Shown: positions 1-22,187 of the stretch, piece after piece
Layout of the letters: each line of letters begins with the position of its first letter
Numbering within the stretch: the stretch's first letter is position 1
Source of the DNA: Sulfurospirillum diekertiae
Lineage (GTDB): Bacteria; Campylobacterota; Campylobacteria; Campylobacterales; Sulfurospirillaceae
Length of the DNA: 64,000 bases
Assembly (NCBI RefSeq): GCF_002309535.1
Contig: NZ_CP023275.1
Location: 2,604,001-2,668,000 of the forward strand
Reading direction: 5' to 3'
The notes under the pieces: generated by a model
What the model was told of the DNA's origin: nothing
Database searches by the model: none
Seen by the model: the letters and a program-made list of their open reading frames with translations, nothing else
Program-made: the position numbers and the translations under genes

Positions 1-1
1 T

Positions 2-349
2 GAGATTATTGATCTTTATAATGCATTGAAAAAAGAGAAAGAGTCATTTGGAGATTTAGGTATTGATTTTGAGGAGAAAGCTTTTTACGATATCTTGAAA
101 ATGATCTCTATCAAATATGACTTTTCATATCCTGATAATAAATTAATAGCTCTTGCAAAAGAAGTCAAAATTGTCGTCGATGATAAATCTAAATATACCG
201 ATTGGAATATACGAGAAGACATCAAAGCTGAACTCAAAGTGGATTTGATAATGTTGCTTGCAAAACATGGCTATCCACCAATTACAAAAGATGAAGTGTT
301 TAAAGAGATATTTGAACAAGCTGAAAATTTTAAGAAATTTAGGCAATAA
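2..349 (+). CDS. hsdR: Type I restriction enzyme R subunit, C-terminal end (partial)
   Basis: The reading frame is open from base 2 and enters from outside the window, so this is a 115-residue tail; the first in-frame TTG at 26 is not a real start. The sequence matches the C-terminal helical domain (DUF3387) of HsdR, the motor/nuclease subunit of type I restriction-modification: it carries the family signature around YTDWNIREDIKAELKVD and ends with the AKHGYPP and EIFEQAENFK blocks. HsdR normally translocates and cuts unmodified foreign DNA with HsdM and HsdS, which should lie to the left. It sits in an integrated element with a Fic protein and an integrase, consistent with a defence island. 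The nuclease and helicase motifs are outside the window, so whether it is intact cannot be judged. Confidence 0.88.
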   Translation, partial: EIIDLYNALKKEKESFGDLGIDFEEKAFYDILKMISIKYDFSYPDNKLIALAKEVKIVVDDKSKYTDWNIREDIKAELKVDLIMLLAKHGYPPITKDEVFKEIFEQAENFKKFRQ

Positions 350-645: not shown

Positions 646-1944
646 ATGGCGGTAGTGGATTTAGTTAAATGGAATGGTAACCCAAATATATTAGCTTGGA
701 AATTTCCCTCGGAAGAGCTTTCAACATGGACACAGTTGATTGTAAATGAGACACAAGAAGCATATGTTGTAAAAGAAGGTGTTTATCAAGGGCCTTTTGG
801 TGCAGGTAGACACACTTTATCAACAGAAAACATTCCTCTATTGCGAAGTTTAATTGGCATACCATTTGGAGGAAAGTCACCTTTCACTGCAGAAGTTTGG
901 TATGTCAATCGCGCAACTAATCTTGATATTAGGTGGGGGACACCTGATCCAATTCAGCTACAAGATCCTAAATATCAACTTATGATACCGGTTCGAGCAT
1001 TCGGTCAATACGGTATAAAAACTACAGATGCCAAAAAATTTTTATTAAAACTTGTTGGAACTCTTTCTGGATTTGATGTTAATACAATGTCGGATTATTT
1101 TAAGGGCGTATTGACTACAAAAATTAAAACTGGTATTGCAAATGCAATCATAAAAAATGGTCACTCTGTCTTGGAAATTTCTACAGAACTTGAAGTGCTT
1201 TCGAACATGCTAAAAGATTCACTTATTCCTGAGATGGAAGAATATGGGATCGGTCTGACTCAATTCAACATTCATTCAATCAATGTTCCCGAAGATGATC
1301 CAGCTGTTATTTCATTGAAAACTGCATTAGCAAAACGTACGGAAATGGGCTTATTAGGATTTAATTATCAGCAAGAGCGCAGTTTCGATGTGATGCAAAC
1401 CGCTGCAGGCAATGAAGGAAGTGCGGGGAGCGTCATGGGTGCAGGTCTTGGAATGGGCATGGGAGTTGGTATGGGACTTCCTTTTGGAAATGCTTTTGCT
1501 CAAATTACACCCAACATGCAGCCTAATATGGCGCAAACTCAAATTATTTGTCAGAAGTGCAATACTGCAAATCCAGTAGGAACTAAATTCTGTGGAAATT
1601 GTGGTGCGATGCTTACTGTAGTTTCAAATGAACCCAACAGACAACCTATAACATGTGATAAGTGTAATGCGATCATTCCTCATGGGTCAAAATTTTGTCC
1701 AAATTGCGCTGATCCTGTTAATAATTGCCCAGTATGTGGCGAAGATAATCCTGATGGTGCTAAACAATGTCGTCGCTGTGGGAATTCTATGCCAGTTGCA
1801 TGCTCAAGTTGCAACACAACAATTCCAAACGGCATTAAGTTTTGTCCAGAATGCGGTAAGAAAACAACTCCATTGTGTGTTAAATGCGGAAGTGACTTAT
1901 CAATTGGAGCTAAATTTTGTAATGCCTGTGGTGAAGCACAGTAA
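646..1944 (+). CDS. SPFH-domain protein with five C-terminal zinc ribbons (YdjI-like)
   Basis: 432 residues. Residues about 20-240 form an SPFH/Band 7 domain of the YdjI type ('virion core protein-like' SPFH), with characteristic WGTPDPIQLQDP and IPVRAFGQYGIK segments; there is no transmembrane helix. A Gly/Met-rich linker (about 258-286) leads to five zinc ribbons of the form CxxC-x10-CxxC at about 302, 337, 361, 386 and 411. Bacillus YdjI, a member of this class, links phage-shock proteins to the membrane together with the membrane protein YdjG (known). The two downstream genes encode a small membrane protein and a zinc-ribbon membrane protein, so the three probably form one membrane-associated complex (inferred). 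Location in an integrated element next to restriction and Fic genes suggests a stress or defence role; this is not shown by sequence. Confidence 0.85.
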   Translation: MAVVDLVKWNGNPNILAWKFPSEELSTWTQLIVNETQEAYVVKEGVYQGPFGAGRHTLSTENIPLLRSLIGIPFGGKSPFTAEVWYVNRATNLDIRWGTPDPIQLQDPKYQLMIPVRAFGQYGIKTTDAKKFLLKLVGTLSGFDVNTMSDYFKGVLTTKIKTGIANAIIKNGHSVLEISTELEVLSNMLKDSLIPEMEEYGIGLTQFNIHSINVPEDDPAVISLKTALAKRTEMGLLGFNYQQERSFDVMQTAAGNEGSAGSVMGAGLGMGMGVGMGLPFGNAFAQITPNMQPNMAQTQIICQKCNTANPVGTKFCGNCGAMLTVVSNEPNRQPITCDKCNAIIPHGSKFCPNCADPVNNCPVCGEDNPDGAKQCRRCGNSMPVACSSCNTTIPNGIKFCPECGKKTTPLCVKCGSDLSIGAKFCNACGEAQ

Positions 1945-1962
1945 ATTTTTCAAGGAGTGATA

Positions 1963-2652
1963 ATGCGTTTATTGGGAGTGTTCAATATTGTAGCAATTGT
2001 TGCCAGTATAATGGTATTGGTAATAGCTTTTATATTGGTTCCTGATAAGTCTTGGAATTTATCAACCATTATTTCGGTTATTATTTTTGCATTAGCACTG
2101 GGATTTGTTTTTTATACACCTAACATTGTTGCAAAAAGACAAGGTTCTAATAATGCGAATCATCTGGCTTCAATTGGACCATTAGGTGTCATAATTGGTT
2201 GGATGCTTTTACTTGCTTCTGGTGCTTTTGTTCTGGCAGTAGCAGGCTATCCGAAATTAGCATTAGCATTAGATGTCTTTGTTATTGGTACATTTATAAT
2301 CAGTTTATTTATGTTAAATACGGCCCTCAGTATTGTAAATAATGCAACCGAACAATCTAATGAACCGAGTAAGCATTTTCAATGGCAAACCACATTGAAA
2401 GGTTTCTGCACTATTACATCAGATGCAAATTCGAAGAATTCGTTGGAAAAGCTTGTTGAAAAATTAAGATATGTGGCCAGTGATGTTATGGGTGAAACTC
2501 CACAAGATATTCAAATCGAAAGTATTATTCAAGCAATCAATGATGAATTAACCTTGGATAATTCATCAAATATTCAAAACCTGATTTCAAAAATTGAAGT
2601 ATTAATGGCTCAACGTGATATTTATTTACGTTCAGCTCGTAGTAAAGCATAA
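1963..2652 (+). CDS. Multi-pass membrane protein of the SPFH cassette
   Basis: About 229 residues when started at the ATG at 1963, which lies 5 nt after AAGGAG (1952-1957); an in-frame GTG at 1957 overlaps that ribosome site and is less likely. Four hydrophobic segments lie in the first two thirds (roughly residues 4-27, 36-52, 73-97, 102-122). A hydrophilic, mostly helical C-terminal third without cysteines follows. I do not recognise a family. It starts 18 nt after the SPFH gene and ends 27 nt before the zinc-ribbon membrane gene, so it is co-transcribed. It may be the membrane anchor through which the soluble SPFH protein is recruited (inference). Confidence 0.75.
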   Translation: MRLLGVFNIVAIVASIMVLVIAFILVPDKSWNLSTIISVIIFALALGFVFYTPNIVAKRQGSNNANHLASIGPLGVIIGWMLLLASGAFVLAVAGYPKLALALDVFVIGTFIISLFMLNTALSIVNNATEQSNEPSKHFQWQTTLKGFCTITSDANSKNSLEKLVEKLRYVASDVMGETPQDIQIESIIQAINDELTLDNSSNIQNLISKIEVLMAQRDIYLRSARSKA

Positions 2653-2679
2653 CAATTAATTTATTAATGAGGGATAAAA

Positions 2680-4380
2680 ATGTCTTTAAATCTACTGTGT
2701 AATGGGTGTGGAGGAGAGATTGAATATGAAGCGGGAAATCAGTCATTGAAGTGCCCGTATTGTGGTGCAATAAATGAAATTGCCAAACCTGAAAATAGAG
2801 TTTCAGATCATGTTGAAAAAGTAATTCCATTAACTGTGAAAAAACAGGATTTGGAAAATAGAGTTTATGAGTATATGGCTAGTGGAAACTACACACCTGA
2901 TGATATGATTGAGGAAGCAAAAATTATTAATCGTCAATTTTTTTACGTTCCAGCATATAAATTTCAAGTTGAATTTGAGGCTACGTGGACAGCTTCATTT
3001 GGTTATGACCGTCAAGAACATTACACTGAATATGTTTCAGTAACAAAATGGACTGGCCAAGGGGCGAATCGCAGAGGTTACACAGTCCAAGAACCACAGA
3101 CTCGTACAAGAACTGTAACAGACTGGAGACCAGCAAATGGTACAGATACAGGAGTCTTTTTTGTTGCTGAATATGCAGGAAATAAATTGCATGAATCAGA
3201 ATTGCGTCCTACAGATCTTGTAAAGTTTACAGCTATAGAAGGAAAAATGACGGATTTTAACCCATCGTTTTTGCAAGGAGTTGAAACTGAAAATTTCTGC
3301 ATATCTGAGTCAAATTCATTTGCATCTCTTAAAAATGAGACTAATTCTATTATTGAACGTAGTGTAAAAAATCATGGACAAGGTGATCGACAGAAAGATT
3401 GGCATTGGAGTGCAACAATGTCACATTCAAGCAAAACTGTTTATGTGCCAATATGCCACGCTGTGTTTGATTATAAAGGAGCTGAGTATCAAGTATGGAT
3501 AGATGGAATTGGTAGCAATGAAATAATAGCTGATGCTTTGCCGGAAGATAAAGAAAAAAAACAAGAAGTATATAAAGGTTTTATTCCTGTAATAGTTGGG
3601 CTATCAAGTTTGATAGCAACAAGTTATTTTTGGGTATTTACTTGGATAGGGATAGGATTTGTGAGTGCCGTTGGTTCATATGCGCTCTTAAGGCGCTATT
3701 CTTTAATTGGGTACTCGAAAAAAATACGAGATTCACTATTGACTCAAATGAAGGCATCCTCTAATGCCATGAATGATTTAAGTGATGATGAACGTAATAA
3801 ATTGGCAATAGCATTTCAGCGTCCCAAAAAACCATTTTTTGCTAAAATACATCGTGACAAATTAATTCTTCCATGTTTGAGTTTTCTCGCAATTCTTGGT
3901 GTCACAATTCCAAGCTATGATGCAAGTCATTTATCGAGGTCACGGATAACGGAAGTAGTTCCAGTTGTCAAGGAAGTAGTTCCAGTTGTCAAGGAAGTAG
4001 CTCCAGTTGTCGAGGAAGTAGCTCCAGCTTCCAAGGATACGAATAAAAACAAATCTTCGAATGATACCATTTCAGGTATATGGGATGGAGAAATGCAAGA
4101 AGGTATTGGTGAAGTGTCGATGAAAATAACACCTGCTCAAACTGTATATAATATTGTATTGGATGCTGTCACAAATAATGGTAGTTGTATTGGAAACATA
4201 TCAGGAATTGGAACACTTAAGGGAAAGCATATGGTCTTTACACAAAAACCTGGTGAAGAACCATGTAAAATAAATATTGTGTTCGATGGTGAGACTGCTA
4301 TATTAACAGAAGAACAGTGCATGTATTATCATGGTTCAGCCTGTACTTTTTCAGGCGTGGTAGAAAAAGGAGACAATTAA
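2680..4380 (+). CDS. Zinc-ribbon membrane protein with C-terminal beta domain (YdjG-like)
   Basis: 566 residues. An N-terminal zinc ribbon (CNGCGG...CPYCGA, residues 7-29) is followed by a long soluble region (about 40-290) rich in Tyr/Trp. Two hydrophobic helices follow at about 305-345 and another at about 395-412. Next come four tandem copies of a 7-residue Val/Pro/Glu unit (VVPVVKE type, about 425-452), then a roughly 100-residue beta-rich domain with paired cysteines that would lie outside the membrane. The zinc ribbon plus membrane helix layout matches YdjG of Bacillus, which works with the SPFH protein YdjI (known). ATG at 2680 is preceded by GAGGG. The repeat linker and the C-terminal domain are unusual and suggest a sensor or effector part across the membrane (inference). 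Confidence 0.75.
   Translation: MSLNLLCNGCGGEIEYEAGNQSLKCPYCGAINEIAKPENRVSDHVEKVIPLTVKKQDLENRVYEYMASGNYTPDDMIEEAKIINRQFFYVPAYKFQVEFEATWTASFGYDRQEHYTEYVSVTKWTGQGANRRGYTVQEPQTRTRTVTDWRPANGTDTGVFFVAEYAGNKLHESELRPTDLVKFTAIEGKMTDFNPSFLQGVETENFCISESNSFASLKNETNSIIERSVKNHGQGDRQKDWHWSATMSHSSKTVYVPICHAVFDYKGAEYQVWIDGIGSNEIIADALPEDKEKKQEVYKGFIPVIVGLSSLIATSYFWVFTWIGIGFVSAVGSYALLRRYSLIGYSKKIRDSLLTQMKASSNAMNDLSDDERNKLAIAFQRPKKPFFAKIHRDKLILPCLSFLAILGVTIPSYDASHLSRSRITEVVPVVKEVVPVVKEVAPVVEEVAPASKDTNKNKSSNDTISGIWDGEMQEGIGEVSMKITPAQTVYNIVLDAVTNNGSCIGNISGIGTLKGKHMVFTQKPGEEPCKINIVFDGETAILTEEQCMYYHGSACTFSGVVEKGDN
3952..4035 (+). repeat. Tandem 21-bp repeat, four copies
   Basis: Four consecutive 21-bp units starting GAAGTAG(T/C)TCCAG, at 3952, 3973, 3994 and 4015; the first two are identical and the last is the most diverged. 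They keep the reading frame and encode a Val/Pro/Lys/Glu linker between the last membrane helix and the C-terminal domain of the host gene. Confidence 0.9.
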
Positions 4381-4620: not shown

Positions 4621-5748
4621 TTATATAATAATCTTATAACTCACATTCCTCCCAGCAGTTCCCTCAATCTGTTCAAGACACCCAAACTCTAGCAATTCCG
4701 CAATATCTCTTGATGCCGTTGTCGAAGCAGTATCCGCAATACTCATGTATTTCTTCTTACTTAAATTCCCTTTGAAATTCTCTATGCCAATATCTAAAAC
4801 AAAGTTCATGACTTTGATTTGTCTAGCGTTAAATGGTTGATCTCTATGTTTATCCCAAAATTCTGTTTTAAAAATAATATGATTCAATTTACTTTTGGTA
4901 TCAAGCAATGCTTGATAGAGTGTATTTAAAAACCATTCACACCACAGTGTAATGTCAAGATGATTATCTACCTTTTTGATATACCCAGTTGTATATTCAA
5001 GTGCAGAATAGTAAGCTTTTTTGTTTTCATTAATTGAGCTTGACATAGAATAGAGTCTTGATATTTTAGAGTTTTCAATATTGGATAATACTAAATCAGT
5101 AATAGCCCTTGTGATTCTTCCATTACCATCATCAAAGGGATGAATGATAACAAACCATAAATGAGCAATGCACGCTTTGATAAGGCTTGGTTTTTCAGTA
5201 TTGAACCATTCTAAAAACCTCTGCATTTCATTGTCTAGCTCATTTCGTGGCGGTGCTTCATAATAAATAACTTCTTTTCCAATTGATCCACCAACAACTT
5301 GCATAGTCTCTTCACCTCTAAATGTTGCTGTGTTTATTTTACGTAAACCACTATAGCCTTTAGGAAAAAGTGCATTATGCCAACCAAAGAGTCTCTCTAA
5401 TGTCAATGCTTTATCATAGTTAGTATTAGCATCTATCAGGATTGCAACGAGATTATCTGTTGAATCAATAATCTTCTTATCATCGATCTCTTTCAATCCA
5501 AATTTCTTAGCAATAGAAGCTTTGACACTATCACGATTAAGTATTTCTCCTTCGATGGCAGCAGTACTTAGTGTTTCATTTAGCAAAGCATCACATTGTC
5601 TTTGAAGAATGGTATCTTTACTCATTGTTTGCGTAAGAGCAAGAAGATAGCCTTGCTCCATAGAGATCTTTTGAAGTAACTGTTCTAGCTTCTCAAAATT
5701 GTAAGTAAAATGCGGATAATTATTGTATTGCCAAATCCATCGTTTCAT
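4621..5748 (-). CDS. Fic-domain AMPylase with N-terminal inhibitory helix
   Basis: 375 residues. The N-terminus (about 1-80) looks like the DUF4172 region of solitary Fic proteins. STAAIEGE at 61-68 fits the (S/T)xxxE(G/N) inhibitory motif, so this is a class II, self-inhibited Fic. The catalytic loop HPFDDGNGR (203-211) is complete, with the His that activates a target hydroxyl and the Gly/Asn/Arg that bind phosphates. A winged-helix-like segment (about 305-375) ends the protein. Such enzymes transfer AMP from ATP to a Ser/Thr/Tyr of a target protein (family knowledge); the target is unknown. The gene is transcribed towards the SPFH cassette. Its promoter holds an imperfect palindrome (5783-5808), which would suit autoregulation through the winged helix (inference). 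Confidence 0.9.
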   Translation of the reverse strand: MKRWIWQYNNYPHFTYNFEKLEQLLQKISMEQGYLLALTQTMSKDTILQRQCDALLNETLSTAAIEGEILNRDSVKASIAKKFGLKEIDDKKIIDSTDNLVAILIDANTNYDKALTLERLFGWHNALFPKGYSGLRKINTATFRGEETMQVVGGSIGKEVIYYEAPPRNELDNEMQRFLEWFNTEKPSLIKACIAHLWFVIIHPFDDGNGRITRAITDLVLSNIENSKISRLYSMSSSINENKKAYYSALEYTTGYIKKVDNHLDITLWCEWFLNTLYQALLDTKSKLNHIIFKTEFWDKHRDQPFNARQIKVMNFVLDIGIENFKGNLSKKKYMSIADTASTTASRDIAELLEFGCLEQIEGTAGRNVSYKIII

Positions 5749-5862: not shown

Positions 5863-7104
5863 CTAATACAAAAATCCAAAGAGCCATAATGGAATTTTGT
5901 AACCAATGCCTATTTCTAGATCATCACTCACAACATAAGAATCAGGGGTGTCTTTAATTTGACTAAAACCCTTCTTTTTACCACCCACTTCAAATGTATA
6001 TTTTTCCTCACAGTAAAAATCTCCACTTTTACCAGCAAAGATACCATCATCATTAAGGCTTCGTTTGATTTTATAATAATTGTCTAACTGATTTACAAAG
6101 AAAGTTTCTCTCAAATTCCCAATATCAGGCTCTTTTGTATACATTAGATTTGGATTAGCTAGATAAATCTTCTCTGGTTTATCAATAGACTTCATAGCTA
6201 AAGCGTTTCGCATCAAAAGCTTAATAAGCCCTGCGTCATCTAGTTTTGAAAGATACTCTTTTAATGTTCTATCATCGGTGATATCTGCTGCTTTTTTCAT
6301 ATCACTCATATTGGGTTCAAACGGTACACTTTTGATAATAATAGAAAGCAATGTTTTGATTTTTTTAATACTGGTACCATTAAGTTTTGGATAGACGTAG
6401 AGTAAATCACTCTCAATGGAGACATTGATATTCTGTTGAAGGGTTTGCAAAAAAAGTGTTGTATTGGGCATTGATAAATAATAAGGATAATAACCGTATT
6501 TGAGATAATTTTTAAACAAAGGGATAATCTTATGCTCTTTTTGTTCAATCTGTTTTTTAACCTCTGTTGCTATCTCCACGTGCTTTTCTAAAACATCTTG
6601 TAAACTATATGGACTAAATTTAAAACCATAGTGCAATTCTAAAAATTCTCGAAAGCTCATTCCTACCATTGTATAGACGATCGCTCGCCTGCTGAGATCA
6701 TGGCTACCTTGATTAATTTGTAAAGCCGAACTTCCTGTAGCAATAATTTTAAGTTCACCAAAACGATCATAGATGTTTTTAAGTTCAGCTGACCAAGAGT
6801 TATATTTGTGAATCTCATCAAAGCATAGTAGCTTTCCACCATTTAAAACAAACTCTTCTGCAATCTCTGTCATACTAAATTGGGCGGTGTTTTGAATATC
6901 ATCAAGGTTAACATACAAAGCTTCATGCTCTTTATAATATAAGCTCATATATTGTGCAATCGTCGTTGTTTTACCAATACCTCTTGCTCCAATAATAATA
7001 GAAAGCCTATGTTCTAATAGTTGTGTTGTTAAAAAATAACGCTTATATACTTGATTATTGAGTGCTATAAATTCACGACTTTTAATAAAGAGTTCTTCCA
7101 ACAT
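5863..7104 (-). CDS. AAA-family ATPase (AAA_14/DUF4143 type)
   Basis: 413 residues from the ATG at 7104, which follows an AGGATGG ribosome site; a longer frame opens at a TTG 27 nt upstream and is less likely. Walker A GARGIGKT lies at about 39-46 and Walker B LLCFDEIH at about 92-99, followed by a sensor-like IIATGSS segment. The C-terminal half matches the DUF4143-type region of archaeal/bacterial ATPases of unknown role, often strain-specific. It lies between the Fic gene and the integrase in the same orientation, but gaps of more than 100 nt and separate palindromes argue for its own promoter. Substrate and function are unknown; many relatives sit in mobile or defence regions. Confidence 0.8.
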   Translation of the reverse strand: MLEELFIKSREFIALNNQVYKRYFLTTQLLEHRLSIIIGARGIGKTTTIAQYMSLYYKEHEALYVNLDDIQNTAQFSMTEIAEEFVLNGGKLLCFDEIHKYNSWSAELKNIYDRFGELKIIATGSSALQINQGSHDLSRRAIVYTMVGMSFREFLELHYGFKFSPYSLQDVLEKHVEIATEVKKQIEQKEHKIIPLFKNYLKYGYYPYYLSMPNTTLFLQTLQQNINVSIESDLLYVYPKLNGTSIKKIKTLLSIIIKSVPFEPNMSDMKKAADITDDRTLKEYLSKLDDAGLIKLLMRNALAMKSIDKPEKIYLANPNLMYTKEPDIGNLRETFFVNQLDNYYKIKRSLNDDGIFAGKSGDFYCEEKYTFEVGGKKKGFSQIKDTPDSYVVSDDLEIGIGYKIPLWLFGFLY

Positions 7105-7143
7105 AGCCCATCCTAATGTTTTATAAAACAATTATACATCAAT

Positions 7144-7238: not shown

Positions 7239-8417
7239 TTATTTTCTTACTCTACTAAAAAAATCATCTAATGATTCAGCAGCAACTTCTTGACGAACTT
7301 TAGAATACCGCTTTGTCACACTAATGGACGTATGCCCTAAAACAGAAGCCACTTGCTCTAAGGTTCTACCACTCGATACAAGTGTACCACCAATCAAATG
7401 CCTCAAATCATGAATTCTCAGATGAACGCCTAGCTGTTTTAAGACTTTATCCCAATGATTACGTACCGTTCCCTTATCCATTTTTCTACTTTTATCGCTG
7501 AACGCATGGAAAATATAATGATTTCCACTCTTAATTCCTAGAACTTCTAGTGTTCCTATAAGTTCTTTGCTCAATTTATACGTCATCGGCTTTCTGACTT
7601 TATTGTTCTCGTATTTGATAGTATAAGTGTTGTTTTCAAGGTTAATGTCACTCCATTGAAGGCTTAATGTCTCATTGAGCCTTCTACCATGCGTTAACCA
7701 AATAAATATACTTTTAAAAGGCTCTAATGGATAGTTATACAAAATATCGTAAAGCTCTTTTGTTTTTTCATCGGATAATTCAACGCTCATCTGATTATCA
7801 AATTTTGGTATTTGAATTAAGTCTGCTGGATTTGATTTTAATGTCCCATCTAATACATAGCGTTTGAACATAGGTCGAAGAGTTTCTTTTAACGATTTTG
7901 CAGTACGAGGGCTTTTCCCAGAATCTAAAATACCATTAACAATCGATTGTAATTTACGTGTTGTAACTTTATCAATGGGCGCCTTTGCTAAGTCTGGTTG
8001 AGAAAGTATCCATTTGTTAGCAAACGTCTTATACGAAACAAGTGTATTGAGGGAGAGTTGATTCTTCTTCATATCCATAAATTCTTCCCATGCTTGCTGA
8101 AGAGTTGGAATTTTAATCTTCAATTCTTTATGCGAGCCTTCTATTAACTTTGTCAATAGTATTTCTCTTTGAGAAGAAACCTGTCGAAGAGCTTGTAAAA
8201 AAGTGGTCTTTTGAGAAAAATCAAATGTTTTTTTAGTTTGTGTTCGCACACAACTTTGATTAACATATGTAATGCGAAGTACGAGCTTAAAATCTCGAGG
8301 AATATAGGTTGGAGCTTTTGTGATTTCCTTGCCACTAAAAATTTCATCATTGTTAATAAAATATATATTACGACAATCTACATTTGGGATATTTACTTTT
8401 ACAAAGATATCAGCCAT
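7239..8417 (-). CDS. int: Tyrosine recombinase / phage-type integrase
   Basis: 392 residues. An N-terminal arm-binding part (1-100) and a SAM-like core-binding domain (about 104-190) precede the catalytic domain. Catalytic residues are visible: Arg in HGRR (245/246), H336-x-x-R339 in IHDLRH, His362 in LGHTS and the nucleophile Tyr371 in KRYSK. It would integrate and excise the element by site-specific recombination at a tRNA gene. The gene starts about 160 nt from a 3' tRNA-Leu fragment that marks the element end, the usual arrangement. Short repeats in its upstream region (8442-8497) may be arm-type binding sites. It appears full length. Confidence 0.93.
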   Translation of the reverse strand: MADIFVKVNIPNVDCRNIYFINNDEIFSGKEITKAPTYIPRDFKLVLRITYVNQSCVRTQTKKTFDFSQKTTFLQALRQVSSQREILLTKLIEGSHKELKIKIPTLQQAWEEFMDMKKNQLSLNTLVSYKTFANKWILSQPDLAKAPIDKVTTRKLQSIVNGILDSGKSPRTAKSLKETLRPMFKRYVLDGTLKSNPADLIQIPKFDNQMSVELSDEKTKELYDILYNYPLEPFKSIFIWLTHGRRLNETLSLQWSDINLENNTYTIKYENNKVRKPMTYKLSKELIGTLEVLGIKSGNHYIFHAFSDKSRKMDKGTVRNHWDKVLKQLGVHLRIHDLRHLIGGTLVSSGRTLEQVASVLGHTSISVTKRYSKVRQEVAAESLDDFFSRVRK

Positions 8418-8580
8418 TTTTACAACCTTGAATATGTTGTGTTAGGGTACACATTAGGGTACACATTTTCATATACAATTATAGTTATGTGTACCTTACA
8501 AAAAAGTCATCATGTCTTTATAAAGCCCTAAAATACGAATATTGTAAGCACTTATAATTACTTGTAATTATCTTCATAAT
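8418..8580. promoter_or_regulatory. Integrase upstream region with TACACAT repeats
   Basis: TTAGGGTACACAT occurs twice in direct orientation 12 nt apart (from 8442 and 8454), and an inverted relative, ATGTGTACCTTA, lies at 8487-8498. Together they fit arm-type integrase or excisionase sites beside the attachment core; the protein that binds is not known. Confidence 0.5.
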
Positions 8581-8637
8581 CGGACTTAGGATCTGGTGCC
8601 GAGAGGCATGGGAGTTCGAGTCTCTTTATCCGCACCA
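8581..8637 (+). other. 3' fragment of tRNA-Leu(TAG): distal attachment site of the element
   Basis: The sequence begins in the anticodon arm (CTTAGGA loop, anticodon TAG), continues through the leucine-type variable arm (TGCC-GAGA-GGCA), the T arm (loop TTCGAGT) and the 3' acceptor strand, and ends in CGCACCA at 8637. The D arm and 5' acceptor strand are missing and T-stem pairs have decayed to G-T, so it is not a functional tRNA. For a tRNA read on this strand, the intact copy should lie at the other end of the element, left of the window. The element therefore spans at least positions 1-8637. Confidence 0.88.
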
Positions 8638-8652
8638 TCCCTATTTTAGGGA
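8638..8652 (+). terminator. Hairpin after the tRNA fragment
   Basis: TCCCTA-TTT-TAGGGA directly follows the CCA end. It probably is the original terminator of the tRNA gene left on the chromosomal side. Only weak T content follows. Confidence 0.4.
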
Positions 8653-8898
8653 CTTTCAAACAAATTAAAATCTTCAAATTTTTTTACTCGTTATCCATAA
8701 ATTACTAAAATAATTAAATATCCGTGTATGTCAAAAAGCTTATATGCCTAGAAATAAACTTCATTTAACATTAGATGCCTCATTCCATTAAAGTTAGTTA
8801 ACATTTCATTGATATAATACCGTCACAGATACCAAACCTTTATTTTCGTTTGGCAAAAGCGTGTCAAAGACTCTTTATTTTACAAAAAGGTCAATTTT
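8653..8898. promoter_or_regulatory. Promoter region of the MdtABC-type operon
   Basis: About 245 bases without a gene. A consensus -10 TATAAT lies at 8813-8818. Downstream, CCAAAC (8832-8837) and GTTTGG (8848-8853) can pair around a 10-nt loop, either as an operator at the start of transcription or as a leader hairpin. No regulator gene is adjacent. Confidence 0.45.
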
Positions 8899-10122
8899 AT
8901 GTCATTTTCCACTCCTTCCGAAACCATCAAAAATCAAAAATCATCTCTCAAAAAATGGGCTCTCGTCCTCATCATAGGCACTCTTATTGGCATAGCAAGT
9001 TATTTTACTGTTTTTAAAAGTCAACCTAGCACAAGCAATGATCCTAGAAAAGTCTTTGCTACACGAGTGATGTCCGTTTCAACGGCTCCTGTTCAGCAAG
9101 GTGCTATTAAAATCTTTTTTCAGGGTCTTGGAACCGTCATTCCTTTGTCCAATGTCGTTGTGAAAAGCCGCGTGGATGGGCAGTTGATGGATATTTTGTT
9201 CACCGAAGGACAAATGGTTAAACAAGGCGATGTTCTTGCAAAAATTGATGCAAGAAGCTTTGAAGTACAGCTCAAACAAGCGCAAGGACAACTGTTGAAA
9301 GACCAAGCACTCCTTGAAAATGCGCTGATTGATCTGAAGCGTTATGAAGTGCTTTTGCAACAAGATTCTATCTCCAAACAAGTTTTAGACACCCAAACAG
9401 CCCTTGTGCATCAATACCAAGGGACGATAAAAGTAGACGAAGCCTCCATCGATAGTGCCAAATTGCAACTAGACTACAGCACGATTACAGCACCTACGAG
9501 CGGACGAATAGGTCTTCGCTTGGTCGATAAAGGCAATATGATCCACGCCTCCGATACCACAGGCTTAGCGGTGATTGCGCAAATCAATCCGATTTCAGCC
9601 ACCTTTACCTTACCCGAAGACAAAGTTCCTGCCATCACCCAAGCTTTACACGACACGAAAACACTTGAAGTTGAAGCGTACGATCGAAGTGACTCCATAC
9701 TCATCGCCAAAGGGCACCTTGCCAGTATGGACAACCAAATCGATACCGCAACAGGCACACTCAAATTCAAAGCAGAATTTGATAACACTGAGAACAAGCT
9801 CTTCCCCAATCAATTTGTCAATATTCATCTTTTAGTTACAACGAAGCAAAATGCACTGTATGTTCCCAGTGCAGCCATACAACACGGCTCACAAGGTAAT
9901 TTTGTTTACCGTGTCAAAGAAGATCAAACGGTGAGTGTGCAACAGGTTAAAATAAGCTCTACCCAAAATGGCAATTCGATCATTGAAGAGGGCTTAAACC
10001 TGAGCGACATCGTTGTCGTTGATGGTGTGGATAAATTGCGTGAAGGAAGTAAAGTCGACATGAACGCCACGAAAGAAACGCCTTCAAAAGCTTCTCGTAC
10101 TAAAAACGATACGCAAAAATGA
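8899..10122 (+). CDS. mdtA: RND efflux periplasmic adaptor (MdtA-type)
   Basis: 407 residues. A signal-anchor helix (about 19-38) leads to the membrane-fusion fold: half-lipoyl motif around [11 protein letters not shown], an alpha-hairpin (about 115-175), the second half-lipoyl with [16 protein letters not shown], then beta-barrel and membrane-proximal domains. It bridges the inner-membrane pumps and the outer-membrane channel across the periplasm. It is first of four overlapping genes (the next starts within its stop codon, ATGA), matching the mdtABC order plus an outer-membrane factor. The Ser/Lys-rich C-terminal tail (about 385-407) is typical of MdtA. Substrates (bile salts and drugs in enterobacteria) are not predictable here. 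Confidence 0.9.
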
Positions 10123-13100
10123 ACCCTTCTCGCATCTTTATTTTAAGGCCTATCGCAACATCGTTGGTGATGCTTGCTCTCTTATTAGCAGGCAGTATCG
10201 GCTATCGCATGCTCTCATTATCGGCATTGCCTGAAGTTGATTACCCGACCATTCAAGTTGTCACGCTTTACCCAGGGGCGAGTCCTGATGTCATCACCTC
10301 TTCGATTACCGCTCCATTAGAGAGACAATTTGGGCAAATGCCAGGACTCAATCAAATGTTATCCACCAGTTCGGGTGGGTCTTCTATTATTACGTTGCAG
10401 TTTGATCTCAAATTGGCCTTAGACGTTGCCGAACAAGAGGTTCAAGCGGCCATCAATGCCGCTACATCTATGTTGCCAACCGATCTGCCCACGCCTCCTA
10501 TTTACAACAAAGTCAATCCTGCGGATACGCCTATTTTAACCCTTGCCGTGACTTCTAAAACCATGCCACTGCCTGTGGTACAAAATTTGGTCGACACGCG
10601 TATTGCCCAAAAAATTTCACAATTAAGCGGTGTAGGGTTAGTCAGTTTAAGTGGAGGACAAAAACCCGCTGTTCGTATCCAAGTCAACCCCAAAGCGTTA
10701 TCCGCCTATGGCATCTCTTTGGAGACGCTGCGAACCATCGTCACTAGTGCTAATGTCAACCAAGCTAAAGGCGGATTTGACGGTCCTAAAAACGCCTCGA
10801 CCATCGATGCTAATGATCAACTGAAATCTGCCAAAGAGTATGAAAATATTATTATCGCCTACACAAACGGCAGAGCTATTCGCCTTACCGACGTTGCAAC
10901 CGTCATTGATGACGCTGAAAATGTACGTTTGGCGGCATGGAAAAATACCACGCCTGCTATTTTGATCAATATTCAACGCCAACCTGGCTCCAACGTGATC
11001 GAAGTCGTCGATCGTGTCAAAAAACTTCTCCCTCAACTGCAAGAATCCTTACCCAATGCGGTGGAAGTTTCACTGCTCACGGACCGTACGACAACCATTC
11101 GTGCTTCGGTTCAAGATGTCAAACAGGAGCTCATCTTAGCGGTTATTTTGGTGGTTATGGTCATCTTTGTTTTTTTACGCAATATCCCTGCGACGTTAAT
11201 TCCAAGCGTCGCCGTACCCCTTTCATTGGTCGGAACATTTGGGGCAATGTACCTTTTGGGCTTTAGCTTGAACAATTTAACGCTGATGGCGCTGACGATT
11301 GCCACAGGATTTGTTGTCGATGATGCTATTGTCATGATTGAAAATATCGCACGGTACATTGAAGAGGGAGAAAATCCCTTGGATGCAGCGCTCAAAGGCT
11401 CGAAACAGATTGGGTTTACCATCATCTCTTTAACCATCTCACTTTTGGCGGTTTTAATTCCACTTGTTTTTATGCAAGATGTCGTTGGAAGACTGTTTCG
11501 TGAATTTGCCATCACCTTGGCTGTTGCTATCTTGATTTCAGCATTTATTTCCTTAACATTGACGCCGATGATGAGCGCTAAATTGTTGGGTAAAAAACCG
11601 ATGAATGAACAGGGGAAATTTTACCGTTACAGTGGCGCTATCATTGATGCGATGATTCAAGGCTATGCCAAGATGCTCACATGGGTTCTTGATCGTCAAA
11701 AAATGATGCTCACCATTGCTGTGTTAACTATGTTTTTAAATGCCTTGTTGTACGTGTACATTCCCAAAGGATTTTTTCCCATCCAAGATACGGGCGCTAT
11801 TCAAGGGATCACCGAAGCACCACAAGCCATTTCCTTTAGCGCTATGGCACAAAAACAGTGTGAACTTGCCGATAAAATCTTAGAAAATCCCGATATCGAG
11901 AGTATTTCCTCTTTTATCGGCGTTGATGGTGTGAATACCACACTCAATAGTGGACGCATTCTCATCAACCTTAAGCCCCATGATCAACGTCAACACAATG
12001 CGCAGGAGATCATTCAAGCACTTCAAACAAAGCTTCATGATGTAGAGGGCATTACGCTTTACATGCAACCCATTCAAGACTTGAGCCTTGAAGATAGGGT
12101 GAGTCGAACTCAATACCAATTTACCTTAGAGAGTGCCAATGCCAAAGACCTTGAGACATGGACACCCAAAATTATCGAAGCGCTCCATCAGCTTTCACAA
12201 TTAAGAGATGTTGCAAGCGATCAACAAGATCAAGGACTTCAAATCTACGTCGATATTGACCGCTCAACTGCAAGTCGTTTGGGCATTAGCGTCGCGGCCA
12301 TCGATGCGGCACTCTACAATGCGTTCGGACAACGCTTAATCTCAACCATCTACACACAAACCAGCCAATATCGCGTTATCCTCGAAGTAGAACCTCGGTA
12401 TCAAATGGGACCTGGTGCGCTTGAAAACCTTTACGTCACGAGTAGCACGGGGGCGACCATTCCACTCAGTGCTATCGCCCATATTAGCGAGCGCCAAACG
12501 CCTTTAGTCATCAATCATCTGGATCAATTTCCGACCACAACCATTTCATTTAACCTTGCACCCAACGCCTCTTTGGGCGATGCAACAGAGGCGATCCAAC
12601 AGCAAAAAGATACGCTTGGATTACCCCCTAGTATGGAATTACGCTTTCAAGGAGCGGCGGCGGCATTTCAAAAATCACTGACCAATACGTTACTTCTTAT
12701 TCTAGCAGCCATTGTGACTATGTATATTGTTTTAGGTGTTCTGTACGAAAGTTATATCCATCCTCTTACCATTCTTTCAACACTTCCTTCTGCGGGGGTG
12801 GGAGCTCTTTTGATGCTCTTATTTACCAAAAACGATCTGGATATTATCGCCATCATTGGTATTATTTTATTAATTGGTATCGTTAAAAAGAATGCCATTA
12901 TGATGATTGATTTTGCCCTTGAAGCGGAAAGGCATCAGGGACAATCACCACGAGATGCCATCTATCAAGCGTGCTTATTGCGCTTTCGTCCTATTTTAAT
13001 GACCACCTTAGCCGCACTGTTTTCAGCGATTCCCTTGATGGTTGGAACAGGTGTGGGGTCTGAATTAAGACATCCATTAGGACTTGTGATGGTGGGAGGA

Positions 13101-13202
13101 TTGCTCGTAAGCCAAGTGTTGACCCTGTTCACGACACCCGTCATTTATCTCTTTTTTGATCGTTTAGCTACGCGATTCAAATCTTTACATGTAAAGCATT
13201 AG
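10119..13202 (+). CDS. mdtB: RND efflux pump subunit (MdtB-type)
   Basis: 1027 residues, usual length for an HAE1-type RND pump with 12 membrane helices and two large periplasmic loops. The helix-4 motif [13 protein letters not shown] carries the paired aspartates used for proton coupling, and [15 protein letters not shown] in the second half is the matching helix-10 block. In the Mdt system two different RND proteins form a B2C heterotrimer; the next gene is a clear paralogue, fitting that design. It overlaps the adaptor gene by 4 nt. The last codons contain a TTTACATGTAAA palindrome (13184), giving a SLHVKH C-terminus. Confidence 0.92.
13184..13195. repeat. TTTACATGTAAA palindrome, exact
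   Basis: The only exact copy before 25 kb; lies in the last codons of the MdtB-type gene and is read as LHVK. Confidence 0.9.
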
Positions 13203-13204
13203 CC

Positions 13205-16200
13205 ATGCATCTCAGCGCCCCTTTCATCGCAAGACATGTAGCGACAACACTGTTAACCATCGGTATTGTTTTAGCAGGCGCCCTTGCGTTTGGCTTGTTG
13301 CCCGTTTCTCCTTTACCACAAGTGGCTTTTCCAACGATTTCTGTCTCGGCCTCTTTACCAGGCGCAAGCCCTGAAACGATGGCAGCAACGGTTGCAACGC
13401 CTCTAGAGCGTAGTCTTGGGCGCATTGCTGGGGTAACGGAGATGACTTCATCCAGTTCGATGGGGTCTACTCGCGTCACCTTGCAATTTGATTTGGATCG
13501 CGACATTAACGGTGCGGCACGCGATGTTCAAGCGGCCATTAATGCCTCTTTATCGCTCTTACCCACAGGCATGCTCAGCAATCCAACGTACCGAAAAGTC
13601 AATCCTGCCGACGCTCCAATACTGATCCTCTCCATGACATCTGACACCCTGACACAAGCGCAAATGTATGACGCGGCTTCAACCATTTTAGCGCAAAAAC
13701 TTTCACAGGTTGAGGGTATCGGACAAGTCATTGTCGGAGGTAGTTCTCTGCCTGCGGTAAGGGTTGAAGTCAATCCCACAAGCCTCAACCATTACGGCCT
13801 TAGTTTTGAAACACTGCGTACAAGTATCAACGCAACCAACGCCAATCGCCCCAAAGGCACGGTGGAGGATGCTGAACATCATTGGCAAATAGGGGCAAAC
13901 GATCAAGCCAAAAAAGCCACAGATTATAGACCTCTTATCGTTTCGTATCACAATGGAGCACCCGTTTTACTCCAAGATGTTGCAACCGTGATCGATTCCA
14001 ACCAAGATTTGCACAATGCAGGCTCTGCAAACGGTAAACCTTCGGTTCTACTCATCTTATTTCGCCAACCCGATGCCAATATTATCCAAACGGTCGATGC
14101 AGTCGTAGAGTCACTGCCATGGCTCTCCTCATCCATTCCTCAAGGAATCGACTTAAAAATTGCAATGGATAGAACGCCCACCATTCGCGCATCACTTCAT
14201 GAAGTTGAGCGAACGCTTATTATTTCTCTGTTTCTGGTGATTGCCGTTGTCTTTTTATTTTTGCGTAACTGGCGCGCGGCGTTAATCCCCAGTGTTGCAG
14301 TACCTGCTTCGCTGATAGGAACATTTGCCATCATGTACTTGCTTGGTTACAGCCTTGATAACCTCTCCTTGATGGCCTTGACCATCGCCACAGGATTTGT
14401 CGTGGACGATGCTATCGTTGTTTTGGAAAACATCTCCAAAAAGATGGAACAAGGCTTGAGTGCTTTTGAAGCAGCACTTGCGGGGAGTAAAGAGGTTGGC
14501 TTTACCGTTTTATCGATGAGCTTATCGTTGATTGCAGTTTTCTTACCCATTTTACTGATGGGAGGCATTATAGGACGCTTGTTTAGAGAATTTGCGATCG
14601 TGCTCTCCATTGCCATTATTATTTCACTGATTATTTCGCTCACAACAACACCGATGATGTGCGCCTATTTACTCAAAGCTCCCGAAAAAAAACAAGGTCG
14701 GTTAGCGGAACTGAACGAAAGAGTGTTTACCAAAATTCTAAACGCATATGAACGCTCTTTGGCATGGGCGATTCGCCACTCAAAGTTGATGCTCGCCCTC
14801 TTTTTTACGACGATTGGCATCACCATTGCTTTATACATCATCATCCCTAAAGGGTTTTTCCCCCAACAAGATACGGGACGGATTATAGGGGGAATTCAAG
14901 CGGATCAATCTATCTCATTTCAAGCCATGTCTCAAAAACTAAATACGTTTGTCTCCATTGTCAAAGCCGATCCTGCCATTGAAAATGTCATTGCCTACAC
15001 AGGAGGACAACAGGCCAATAGTGGACGAATGTTCATTAGTCTTAAGCCTTTATCCGAACGTAAAATTTCAGCCGATAAAGTTATTGCGAGACTCAGAGGT
15101 AAACTAGCCCATGTTCCAGGTGCTAATCTTTTTTTAGTCCCTGTACAAGATATCCGAATCGGCGGAAGGCAATCGAACGCGCAATACGAATACACCCTCC
15201 AATCGGATGACTTAAGCACTTTACGCGAATGGGAGCCCATCGTTCGTAAAACATTGATGCAACTTCCCCAAATTATCGATGTGAGCAGTGACCAAGAGAT
15301 TAAAGGCTCCCAAACAAAACTGGTAATCAACCGTGATGCGGCCTCAAGACTGGGCATTAGTGCAAGTATGATTGATGCCGTTTTAAACGATTCTTTTGGA
15401 CAACGCACAATCTCGACCATCTATAATCCTCTGAACCAATATCGTGTGGTGTTGGAGGTCGATCCCAAATTTTCGCAGTATCCTAACGCCTTAGATTCGG
15501 TCTATATCATTACCAGTGATGGCTCACAAGTACCCTTATCAGCTTTTAGTCATTATGAGCCTTCACTCACCTCTTTGGGGGTCAACCACCAAGGACAATT
15601 TGCCGCCGCAACACTCTCGTTCAATCTTCCCCTTGGCGTTTCGCTCTCTGAAGCCTCCGATGCAATCACTTCTGCGGTTGAAAAATTGAATTTACCCGTT
15701 TCAATTCACGGAAGTTTTCAAGGTAGCGCCAATGCCTTTAAAGCGTCCCTTCAGAGCCAACCGCTGTTAATCTTAGCTGCCATTTTAACGGTTTACATCG
15801 TACTGGGTATTTTGTATGAAAGCTATATTCACCCACTTACCATTCTTTCTACTCTGCCTTCTGCGGGCGTGGGTGCCCTGCTCGCCCTCATGGCCTTTCA
15901 TACGGAATTTAATATCATCGCGCTTATAGGTGTCATTTTACTCATCGGTATCGTCAAAAAAAATGCCATTATGATGATCGACTTTGCCATTGCTGCGCAA
16001 AGAAATGAAGGACTATCCGCAAGTAATGCTATTCAAAAAGCGTGTAGTTTGCGTTTTAGACCTATTATGATGACGACGATGGCAGCACTTTTAGGCGCGA
16101 TCCCTTTAGCCATAGGATTTGGAGATGGGGCAGAATTACGCCAAGGGCTTGGTATTTCTATTGTAGGAGGCTTGATTTTAAGCCAATTATTGACGTTATA

Positions 16201-16270
16201 TACGACACCCGTCATTTATCTGTACGGTGAAAAAATTCGTTCGAAATTTTCCAAGACACCTCAACCATGA
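13205..16270 (+). CDS. mdtC: RND efflux pump subunit (MdtC-type)
   Basis: 1021 residues, paralogous to the preceding pump along its whole length. The proton-relay helix reads [13 protein letters not shown], and the second half carries [13 protein letters not shown]. It starts 2 nt after the MdtB-type stop and overlaps the outer-membrane gene by 4 nt, so expression is translationally coupled. As second member of an MdtBC pair it should supply the other chains of a mixed trimer (family knowledge). No truncation or missing key residue is seen. Confidence 0.92.
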
Positions 16271-17688
16271 AAGGTTCATTGATTATGCGATACTCACTTT
16301 TATCCATACTGCTTATCACCAATACACTCTTTATAGGGTGTGCTCAGCAAAATACACCTTCTGTACCAACAGATGTTGCTATTCCACAAGCTTACCATGA
16401 AGAGGGAAATTGGAAAAAAGCAACGCCTAATGACAATGCAGTTCGAGGAGCGTGGTGGGAGATGTATCACGATGCAGAACTGAGTACTTTAATGGAAGAG
16501 TTATCGCACTTCAATCCATCCATTAGCAAGTACCAAGCCTTATACAAACAAGCTTTAGCGGTTATGGAGTCTTCACAAGCATCCCTATTCCCAACCTTGA
16601 GTGTTGGAGCAAACGTCACAAGATCTCAAACCTCTGCGGGGAGTAATTCAACGAACAAACAAAGACGCTCAACCGATTATAAACTCCCGCTTCAAGCATC
16701 ATGGACACCTGATATTTGGGGAGATACGCATCGTTTAGTGGATGCCTATTCCCTCAGTGCAGAAGCGAGTTTAAACGATTTAGAAGCCGCAAAACTCTCC
16801 GCGCAGACACTGTTGGCACAAAATTATTTCCAGTTGCGAAACGTGGATGCACAAGAGGCATTTTTGCAACAAACCCTCGAAGCTTACGAGAAATCCCTTC
16901 AGATTACCCAAAATCAATACTATGCAGGAATCGTAACGAAAAAAGATGTCATCACAGCGCAAGCCCAGATAAAAAGTGTTGAAGCGCAAACAATTGATCT
17001 GCATGCGCAGAGGCAACAGTTAGAACATGCCATTGCCGCATTAATCGGCAAAACGCCTTCAGAATTTTCAATACACGCTAATCCAAAGCTGCCTATTGTT
17101 CTGCCCGATATTCCTTATTCTTTACCTTCGGAACTTTTGGAGCGACGACCCGATATCGCGGCTGCGGAACGTAGGATGAAACAAGCCAATCTTCAAGTCG
17201 GTATCGCGCAAGATGCATGGTTTCCAACTTTTAATCTGACCGCTTCAAGTGGTTATGAAAGTAACGTACTTTCTTCGTTGATTTCCAAACCAAACCTTAT
17301 CTGGGCAATCGGTGGAGCACTGTCTCAAACTGTTTTTGATGGAGGTGCGCGTGAGGCAACTTTGAAGCAAATGCAAGGTGCTTATGAAGCCAATATTGCG
17401 ACGTATCGACAAAGTATCTTAACCGCTTTTCAACAGGTTGAAGATGCCCTTGCCACCCTTGAAACACTTTCAAGAGAAGTGAAAGTACAACATGAAGCCG
17501 TTGACTTGGCGCAGCAAGTATTTGACTTCAATATATATCAGTATCGACAAGGTATTGTGAACTATACGAGTGTTGTCGTGGCGCAAACATCGCTTTTAAG
17601 CAACCAAATTACCGTTCTTAACCTTCAAAATAGACAAGTTCTGGCGACCATCTCATTGATCTCTGCCTTAGGAGGTAATTTTCAATAA
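16267..17688 (+). CDS. Outer-membrane efflux lipoprotein (NodT/OprM family)
   Basis: 473 residues. The N-terminus is a lipoprotein signal ending in LFIGC, with Cys25 as the probable lipid-modified residue when started at 16267; an internal ATG at 16285 would give a shorter signal with the same lipobox. Two repeats of the outer-membrane efflux fold follow (about 60-260 and 280-470), with the [12 protein letters not shown] signature of the NodT family. It should form the trimeric exit channel for the MdtABC-type pump encoded just upstream. The ATG overlaps the stop of the MdtC-type gene (ATGA). Confidence 0.92.
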
Positions 17689-17831
17689 TAGTCATTAAAA
17701 AGTGTTCATTTTGAATTCATCTAAATCTTCTACTATATCATCAAAGATTCTTGTTAAAAAGAACGTGACAATAACTCATTAACGTTTATGTTAAGATCAA
17801 TTTTTTGAGCATGATTTTTGGGGAGTATGAT

Positions 17832-18212
17832 GTGAATTGGAATCAACTAAAACGTTTTGTTATGAGTGGTGGTGGAGCGACACTCCTTCATCTTTCCAGC
17901 ATGACTTTGTTAGTCTGGTTAGGTGCCAATGCCATTTTTGCAACTGCTTTTGGAATGGTATTAGGGGCTGTGGTTAACTACATTTTCCAATACTATTATA
18001 CGTTTGATTCCAATACGCAACACCACACATCGATTTTCAAATACTGCATGAGCGTCGCCCTATCGTTTGCAAGCAATATGCTTCTTTTTACACTCTTCTA
18101 TACGCTCTTGCATTTCAATGCGTTTGTATCGCAGTTCCTGACATCCGCACTCGTGGCAATACAAAATTATTGCATTTATAAAAAATTTGTTTTTCTAAGG
18201 AATGTACAATGA
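17832..18212 (+). CDS. GtrA-family flippase-like membrane protein
   Basis: About 126 residues with four transmembrane helices covering most of the chain. The start is taken as GTG at 17832 because GGGGAG lies 6 nt upstream and the product then begins at the family-typical QLKRFVMSGG segment; longer frames from 17805 or 17811 are possible. GtrA proteins are small membrane proteins thought to flip undecaprenyl-phosphate sugars. The gene overlaps the following glycosyltransferase by 4 nt and opens a five-gene cluster for surface sugar transfer, so it likely flips the lipid-linked sugar made by the next gene (inference). Confidence 0.85.
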   Translation: MNWNQLKRFVMSGGGATLLHLSSMTLLVWLGANAIFATAFGMVLGAVVNYIFQYYYTFDSNTQHHTSIFKYCMSVALSFASNMLLFTLFYTLLHFNAFVSQFLTSALVAIQNYCIYKKFVFLRNVQ

Positions 18213-19156
18213 ACCTTCCTTTAGTCAGCATTGTGATTTCTTTATACAATGAAGAGGGTAATCTTGTGAAATTATTTGAAGAACTTTTCAAAGTAGAAAT
18301 CGCTCTTCAAGAAGTGGCTACTTTTGAATACATGTGTGTCAACGATGGCAGTACCGATGCAACACTTCAAACGCTTGAAACACTAACCAAAACCTATCCC
18401 AATATCCAAATTTATAACTTGTATCGAAACTTTGGACATGAAGTTGCAATGAGCGCTGGTATGGATAATGCGCGAGGAGATTGTGTTATTTTTATGGATG
18501 GTGATTTACAACATCCTCCTTATTTAGTGGAGGAGATGGTACATTCGTGGCTCAATGGTCATCAAGTCATCTTAACCAAGAAAATAAGCAATGATGCCGA
18601 AAAATCTTACATGTATACCTATTTATCAAAAATATTTTATTGGATACTTGACAAGCTTTCTGATATTAAAGTCCCAAAAAATTATCCAGATTTTAGACTA
18701 CTCAGTCGTAAACATATTGATACGCTCAAAACTATGAATGAAAATGATAGAATGTTTAGAGGGTTACTCAATTATATTGGGTATGCAAACTGTAAAGTTC
18801 TCGAATTTGAGGTTCCTAAACGTTTTTCAGGACACACCAAATACAATTTTAAAAAATCGTTTGGACTAGCGATTGATAGTATCATGCAATTTTCCATTAA
18901 GCCATTGCGTTTTGCCATCTATATCGGCGTACTGACCGCTTTTATCTCAACAATGTTAGGTGCATATACTTTTTTTGATTATATGTTATTTGATGTGAAA
19001 CGCACAGGCTATGCCACAACGCTGATTGTGACTATTTTTATGAATTCAATTCAACTTGTTGTGTTAGGCATTATTGGCGAGTACATTGGAAAAATTCATC
19101 TTGAAGTGAAAAAACGACCCCTTTATTTTGGAGAATTAGTTGAACATCATCATTAA
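18209..19156 (+). CDS. Family 2 glycosyltransferase making undecaprenyl-phosphate sugar (ArnC/GtrB-like)
   Basis: 315 residues. A GT-A catalytic domain occupies about 1-225, with VNDGSTD and MDGDLQHPP metal and nucleotide-sugar binding motifs. Two membrane helices follow at about 233-255 and 268-292, the layout of ArnC, GtrB and Dpm-like enzymes. It should load a sugar from its UDP form onto undecaprenyl phosphate at the cytoplasmic face. With the neighbouring deacetylase and ArnT-like transferase, the likeliest sugar is an N-acetyl-hexosamine (inference from the Francisella FlmF2/NaxD/FlmK pathway). Its 3' end overlaps the next gene by 17 nt. Confidence 0.88.
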   Translation: MNLPLVSIVISLYNEEGNLVKLFEELFKVEIALQEVATFEYMCVNDGSTDATLQTLETLTKTYPNIQIYNLYRNFGHEVAMSAGMDNARGDCVIFMDGDLQHPPYLVEEMVHSWLNGHQVILTKKISNDAEKSYMYTYLSKIFYWILDKLSDIKVPKNYPDFRLLSRKHIDTLKTMNENDRMFRGLLNYIGYANCKVLEFEVPKRFSGHTKYNFKKSFGLAIDSIMQFSIKPLRFAIYIGVLTAFISTMLGAYTFFDYMLFDVKRTGYATTLIVTIFMNSIQLVVLGIIGEYIGKIHLEVKKRPLYFGELVEHHH

Positions 19157-21489: not shown

Positions 21490-21526
21490 AAACTTGAAAT
21501 AATGAAAATATGAAGAAAAGTGAGCG

Positions 21527-22102: not shown

Positions 22103-22187
22103 TATGAAAGTGTACAGTAAATACTGCGCCTTCATAACATGTTACAATTCAAGATAATTGACCCTTTTGACTTTAAAGGAAATTCTG

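Follow-up and report, generated by a model that had tools for sequence, protein, structure and literature searches.

Right end of a 23-kb mobile element with virus-defence genes in a tRNA-Leu gene of Sulfurospirillum diekertiae

The partial tRNA-Leu gene at positions 8583-8637 of the stretch analysed here (the window: 64,000 nucleotides, positions 2604001-2668000 of the 2.81-Mb genome of Sulfurospirillum diekertiae) is the right end of a 23-kb mobile element that lies in a tRNA-Leu gene and carries virus-defence genes. We are highly confident that it bounds an integrative element of 23.16 kb, inserted in the sole tRNA-Leu(TAG) gene and delimited by the two copies of that tRNA. The comparisons show both ends directly, together with the direct repeat, end repeats that match each other and the genes carried between them; they also show close relatives at this tRNA and, in other species, sites that are empty.

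The fragment (attR, plus strand) comprises the 3' 55 nt of tRNA-Leu(TAG), including the CCA, and matches nucleotides 31-85 of the intact gene base for base. ARAGORN places that gene left of the window at genome positions 2589396-2589480 (window -14604 to -14520), as the last in a 3.1-kb run of five tRNA genes; it is present in a single copy in the genome. Within the window ARAGORN reported no tRNA gene. A 56-base pattern for the fragment had one match in the window, where 0.00 were expected, and the 26 bases of the tRNA 3' end, with up to three mismatches allowed, matched the genome exactly twice (reversed control, zero). The two copies form a perfect direct repeat of 82 bp, with the left copy at genome positions 2589426-2589507 (window -14574 to -14493) and the right copy at window 8583-8664 (plus strand; genome 2612583-2612664), where it extends through a hairpin to 8664. 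Their spacing is 23,157 bp.

From the orientation of the fragment, the first-pass annotation had predicted that an intact tRNA-Leu with a matching 3' end, and with it the other end of the element, would lie leftward past the restriction genes and within about 100 kb. Both the intact gene and the repeat were found there, 23.16 kb away. The same annotation correctly recognized a tRNA-Leu 3' piece with CCA close to an integrase start, but its measurements need small corrections: the piece is 55 rather than 57 nt long, as positions 8581-8582 mismatch the tRNA, and the integrase starts (at 8417) 165 rather than 160 nt away. Its assignment of the restriction, SPFH, Fic, ATPase and integrase genes to one element is supported, as all of them lie between the two repeat copies.

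The integrase, a tyrosine recombinase of 392 aa (7239-8417, minus strand), is full length, retains the catalytic HDLR and GH...RY motifs and adjoins the att site. Just within each end of the element, GTACACATTA occurs twice with a 12-bp step. Both left-end copies are exact (genome 2589544 and 2589556). At the right end (8447-8494, unstranded), GTACACATTA at 8447 is followed by the one-base variant GTACACATTT at 8459 and by an inverted near-copy at 8485. The repeat was chosen after inspection of both ends; with up to one mismatch allowed, it has a single further match elsewhere in the element besides the end copies and the inverted near-copy. The same pairs are found at both ends in this genome (G000), G013, G025 and G033 (there on two contigs); G026 has such a pair at its right end. 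We suspect that these repeats are the arm sites of the integrase. Integrase matches at E<=1e-20 occur in 15 of 44 family genomes, and integrases with 94-98% identity occur in four of the 43 other family genomes (G013, G025, G026 and G033), each beside a tRNA-Leu fragment. Relatives in a plasmid collection are distant, with all 306 records below 60% identity, and viral contigs yielded no confirmed relative of the integrase or of the 313-aa protein described below.

From left to right, the element encodes a 611-aa SF3-helicase-like protein (window -14252 to -12417, genome 2589748-2591583), a 71-aa helix-turn-helix (HTH) protein on the opposite strand, DUF932, Gp157-like, Rad52 and DUF2958 proteins, and a 313-aa protein. 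The defence part follows, with hsdM split over two overlapping frames (genome 2596677-2598061, window -7323 to -5939), SIR2 (window -5825 to -4782, in a region at genome 2598052-2599218, window -5948 to -4782), HerA (window -4785 to -2797) and hsdR (1047 aa, plus strand, genome 2601206-2604349). All genes from that for the 611-aa protein to HerA lie left of the window; hsdR starts at window -2794 and its 3' end occupies window positions 1-349. Next come an SPFH/Band_7 protein with a zinc-ribbon tail (432 aa, 646-1944) and two proteins without family matches at E<=0.001 (231 aa, 1957-2652; 566 aa, 2680-4380), all on the plus strand. These three co-directional genes (646-4380) lie in a segment that varies among relatives, and it is possible that they constitute a three-gene system. 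The minus strand then encodes a Fic-domain protein (DUF4172 plus Fic, 375 aa, 4621-5748; top PADLOC model SoFic), an AAA_14 ATPase in the conserved right end (422 aa, 5863-7131) and the integrase.

GC content is 25-41% within the element against 39-49% in the flanks. The HTH_17 match of the 71-aa protein (E=0.0026) is under the family cut-off. The SIR2 and HerA genes are adjacent and match PADLOC models strongly (E=4.5e-117 and E=1.5e-212, respectively). The HerA protein also exceeds the TrwB_AAD_bind cut-off (25.5 versus 20.5 bits); we read it as HerA because its matches to DUF87 and to the PADLOC HerA model (705 bits) are far stronger. No relaxase was found among 18 element ORFs searched against Pfam, 10 of which were also searched against PHROGs, and the Pfam and PHROGs searches of element ORFs detected no capsid, portal, terminase or packaging genes. 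The AAA_14 ATPase has a weak match to a terminase profile (E=0.00086), and phage-type recombination genes (Gp157/Gam-like and Rad52) are present.

These features indicate how the element very probably arrived. Its att site carries a copy of the 3' part of the tRNA, from the anticodon stem-loop to the CCA, and the integrase recombined this site with the chromosomal tRNA-Leu gene. This rebuilt the tRNA at the left end from DNA of the element and left the original 3' half behind as 8583-8637. The same integrase could excise the element as a circle, perhaps aided by the 71-aa HTH protein, and the SF3-like/Rad52 module may replicate it. Any benefit to the host would presumably be defence.

Other explanations of the repeat and its contents have to be considered. 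If the 82-bp repeat had arisen when the tRNA region was duplicated or rearranged, the intervening genes would be ordinary chromosomal ones, and the fact that neither virion genes nor clear transfer genes were identified would be in keeping with this. We regard it as extremely improbable, given the integrase by the repeat, the matched end repeats, the same integrase with a tRNA fragment in four other genomes, the empty sites in relatives and the drop in GC inside. A degraded, immobile remnant would share every aspect of the favoured reading except present mobility, and several features could be taken as decay: the split hsdM, the absence of hsdS, a SIR2 gene without a usable start before the GAG motif and a 611-aa helicase-like protein that lacks the Walker A lysine. 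Decayed relatives do exist: in G020 only residues 1-258 of the helicase-like protein remain next to the tRNA, G014 has the ATPase and the last 38 integrase residues, and G015 has the Fic and ATPase genes without the window's integrase. However, the integrase is full length with its catalytic motifs, the att repeat is perfect and the end repeats are intact. The altered Walker A is common to seven of the ten relatives examined, and thus may be a trait rather than a sign of decay. We consider an immobile remnant possible but rather unlikely, and continue with the reading of an integrative element bounded by the two tRNA copies.

The tRNA-Leu(TAG) site is a hotspot for such elements, and the kind of element is itself familiar. 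An intact tRNA-Leu(TAG) was found in 23 of 24 genus genomes, the exception being G026 (88% complete), which has a fragment only. Twelve of the 24 carry a 3' fragment, for a total of 13 fragments. Nine of these are accompanied by an integrase that has its start at a distance of 104-203 nt and points away from the fragment (in G017, G028 and G030 it was identified by integrase search and visible motifs); no integrase was found beside the remaining four, in G012, G015, G019 and G024. G013 has two tandem elements at tRNA-Leu, with an integrase at the right end of each. Both are att-bounded (G013 2270001-2318000; L061/L055/L054), and the left one encodes a TrwB-like coupling protein and may be conjugative.

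In G015, the other genome of this species, the tRNA is occupied by a different insert of 21.3 kb, which has in common with the window's element the Fic-ATPase stretch (92.7% identity over 2,544 bp) and lacks the window's integrase. Its tRNA fragment is shorter, a different integrase-like ORF, recognized by eye, lies by the intact tRNA, and on the right comes an efflux adaptor gene, as in the window. Other occupants of the site differ in content. In G012 (C3:129001-143000; L066), the 9.8 kb between tRNA-Leu repeats include what appear by eye to be molybdopterin and iron-sulphur respiratory-like genes, with no integrase by the fragment. G033 has an intact tRNA-Leu(TAG) on each of two contigs (C141 and C222; L031/L048), which reflects either a true duplicate or a mixed assembly.

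Genomes without the element indicate what preceded it. At 22191-22673 the window encodes a putative deoxyribosyltransferase-like protein, and this gene was found in 11 of 24 genus genomes. With distances measured to the start of the match, it lies 92 bp (G018) and 80 bp (G023) after an intact tRNA with no element, and these are empty sites; it lies 87 bp (G025) and 95 bp (G012) after a fragment. G025, whose integrase is 95% identical, has an element between the intact tRNA and the fragment and represents the filled state. Given the direct succession in these four genomes, the ancestral order was probably tRNA-Leu followed by the deoxyribosyltransferase-like gene. Across this junction, G018 and G012 align in 589 of 704 columns. 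The G019/G021 pair was left out as proof of an empty site because only the first part of the flank is common to both (387 of 801 aligned). The gene is farther off in G000, G015, G016, G020, G022 and G028, and on another contig in G032. No empty site for exactly this insertion was found, the other genome of the species being occupied by the 21.3 kb described above.

A terminator-like hairpin (CCCT...AGGG, 8639-8651) with its tail follows the fragment (8638-8664, plus strand). The first-pass annotation noted this hairpin, which is indeed present, and took it for the terminator of the original tRNA; the latter is probably incorrect, as none of the four sites at which the tRNA or a fragment abuts the ancestral neighbour has it. 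The exact pattern was found after 14 of 24 intact tRNA copies and four of 13 fragments, a count that leaves out some near-variants and in which the G029 sequence is truncated. G025 and G012 both have it after the intact tRNA, on the side of the element, and lack it after the fragment, on the side of the chromosome. Together with its absence from the ancestral junctions, this suggests that the hairpin is borne by incoming DNA. Thus, the copy after the window's fragment is probably a terminator left by an earlier insertion. The hairpin is an imperfect mark of insertion: the G028 fragment lacks it, though there the ancestral gene is 15.3 kb off.

In the window's genome the fragment and hairpin are separated from the ancestral gene, with 13.55 kb between the fragment and that gene. 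Given the position of the ancestral neighbour at 22191, the 13.5 kb from 8665 to 22150 are probably an older accretion. We think it fairly likely, judging from comparison with relatives, that an earlier insertion left behind the DNA between 8638 and about 22150 and that elements stack at this site. On the simplest reading an earlier insertion delivered 8665-22150, and its far tRNA fragment has since been lost. The genes in question are presumably an efflux adaptor, two RND-type pumps, an outer-membrane factor, a glycosyltransferase and other envelope genes. At E<=1e-120 the adaptor gene (8899) occurs in four of 24 genus genomes, in three of them at tRNA-Leu (G000, G015 and, at 5.3 kb, G022). 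Against stacking, the GC content of the flank (9 to 16 kb) is like that of the host, a search for a third tRNA fragment within the window found none, and the hairpin marks insertions imperfectly.

The same rarity of the adaptor gene, and the position of the deoxyribosyltransferase-like gene directly after the tRNA in G018 and G023, could instead mean that the right boundary is near 22150 rather than at 8664, and that a single 36.7-kb element extends from the tRNA to the deoxyribosyltransferase-like gene. This seems very improbable to us, as the tRNA fragment, integrase and end repeats set an end at 8583-8637, G015 and G022 carry the adaptor gene at tRNA-Leu without the window's integrase, and the host-like GC of the flank is likewise unfavourable. 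We therefore retain 8664 as the right boundary of the 23.16-kb element.

Comparison with G013, whose integrase is 98% identical, indicates that the element is a mosaic. Common to both at 88-94% identity are genome positions 2592285-2598050, hsdR (2601184-2604350), and the ATPase and integrase (2609781-2612660); the two elements differ in the interval from hsdM to hsdR and in the DNA that follows hsdR. Thus, the genes are in one element without having one common history. In G013, hsdM and hsdR are both open, and the slot between them holds an hsdS-like ORF (recognized by position and by eye), a 163-aa ORF and an AAA_13 protein. In the window's element the slot holds SIR2-HerA, with the junction close to the 3' end of hsdM, and the hsdM 3' end is missing at that junction. 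No hsdS ORF was found in the element, so that the type I set of open hsdM, hsdS and hsdR is incomplete, and the hsdR and HerA frames are open. The SIR2 GAG motif is in frame and is preceded by 30 open codons without an ATG, GTG or TTG; in three relatives (L106-L108) the first usual SIR2 start is about 46-58 residues before the GAG. Given the split hsdM, the lack of hsdS and the missing SIR2 start, restriction-modification and SIR2 are probably inactive, unless translation begins at a rare start codon. Some of the defence genes are therefore, from their reading frames, probably non-functional. A segment exchange in the restriction operon seems to have cost the element hsdS and the SIR2 start.

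The core of the element recurs in other families of the order, in MAGs of Arcobacter sp. (G289) and Sulfurimonas sp. (G337) and in G397, and partially in G371 and G407. The copy in the Sulfurimonas MAG is found next to a tRNA-Phe pair, and the integrase there, identified from sequence, is a different one. Among 397 class genomes, including that of the window, the 313-aa protein is found in five (E<=1e-6) and the 611-aa family in 10 (E<=1e-8). As a single query, the 611-aa protein of the window's genome had no match in PDB or phages. A four-member profile of its family matches the helicase domain of the NrS-1 phage polymerase (PDB 6K9C/6K9E; E=4.5e-14), for which a catalytic Walker A lysine is described (PMC7102993). 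In contrast to NrS-1, seven of the ten family members, that of the window included, lack this lysine, which is present in G096, G286 and G371. The NrS-1-like domain encoded here possibly has a role without ATP hydrolysis. An AlphaFold model of a helicase-like relative had a pLDDT of 33.

The motifs of the 313-aa protein resemble those of Rep_trans initiators, a link that the searches did not support: none of 200 genomes yielded a match over the cut-off, and one weak match in G015 lies at an unrelated place. A Pfam search with five family members and a profile search of PDB gave no support for any family, and plasmid and phage collections searched at E<=0.001 contained no relative. For the Arcobacter relative, AlphaFold gave a model with a mean pLDDT of 44, and Foldseek searches with a relative against PDB and viral models gave one match each below E=0.001, with uninformative TM-scores of 0.21-0.35. 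As a protein without an assignable family, it may be a divergent relaxase. Relatives of Rad52 in the plasmid and phage collections are weak (two plasmids and 14 phages, none above 60% identity), and a search for repeats near the presumed replication genes revealed nothing clear.

From these comparisons we tentatively propose, with more doubt than confidence, an order-wide family of replicating integrative elements in Campylobacterales that has gone undescribed. Its core would consist of an NrS-1-like helicase, mostly without the Walker A lysine, with DUF932, Gp157, Rad52, DUF2958 and often the 313-aa protein. An hsdM-slot-hsdR operon would dock exchanged defence genes, and newcomers would bring their own tRNA terminator and so stack without harming the tRNA. 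Among the open-access papers surveyed by title and opening of the abstract, we found no description of such a family, which does not prove its absence.

Islands integrated in tRNA genes by tyrosine recombinases use the tRNA 3' end as the att site and have direct repeats, a restored tRNA, an integrase at one end and cargo in the middle. The window's element shares all of these traits and differs in family details only: the use of tRNA-Leu(TAG) in this genus, an integrase located by the fragment and not by the intact tRNA, a seemingly element-borne hairpin, and serial stacking. Like defence islands and hotspots on mobile elements, it groups type I restriction, SIR2-HerA and Fic genes, with segments that vary among relatives; it differs from them in that the restriction operon itself contains one such segment, flanked by hsdM and hsdR. 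Overall, this is an element of an ordinary kind in a busy hotspot, with refinements in the likely stacking, the seemingly element-borne terminator, the slots of mosaic content and the damage to the defence genes.

The analysis places the restriction, SIR2-HerA, SPFH, Fic and ATPase genes in one element with exact ends. It also provides an example from nature of what looks like serial stacking at a single tRNA gene, where the incoming element would give the tRNA its 3' half and terminator, and of defence-gene exchange within a restriction operon. The recurring core offers a handle for locating such elements in other Campylobacterales.
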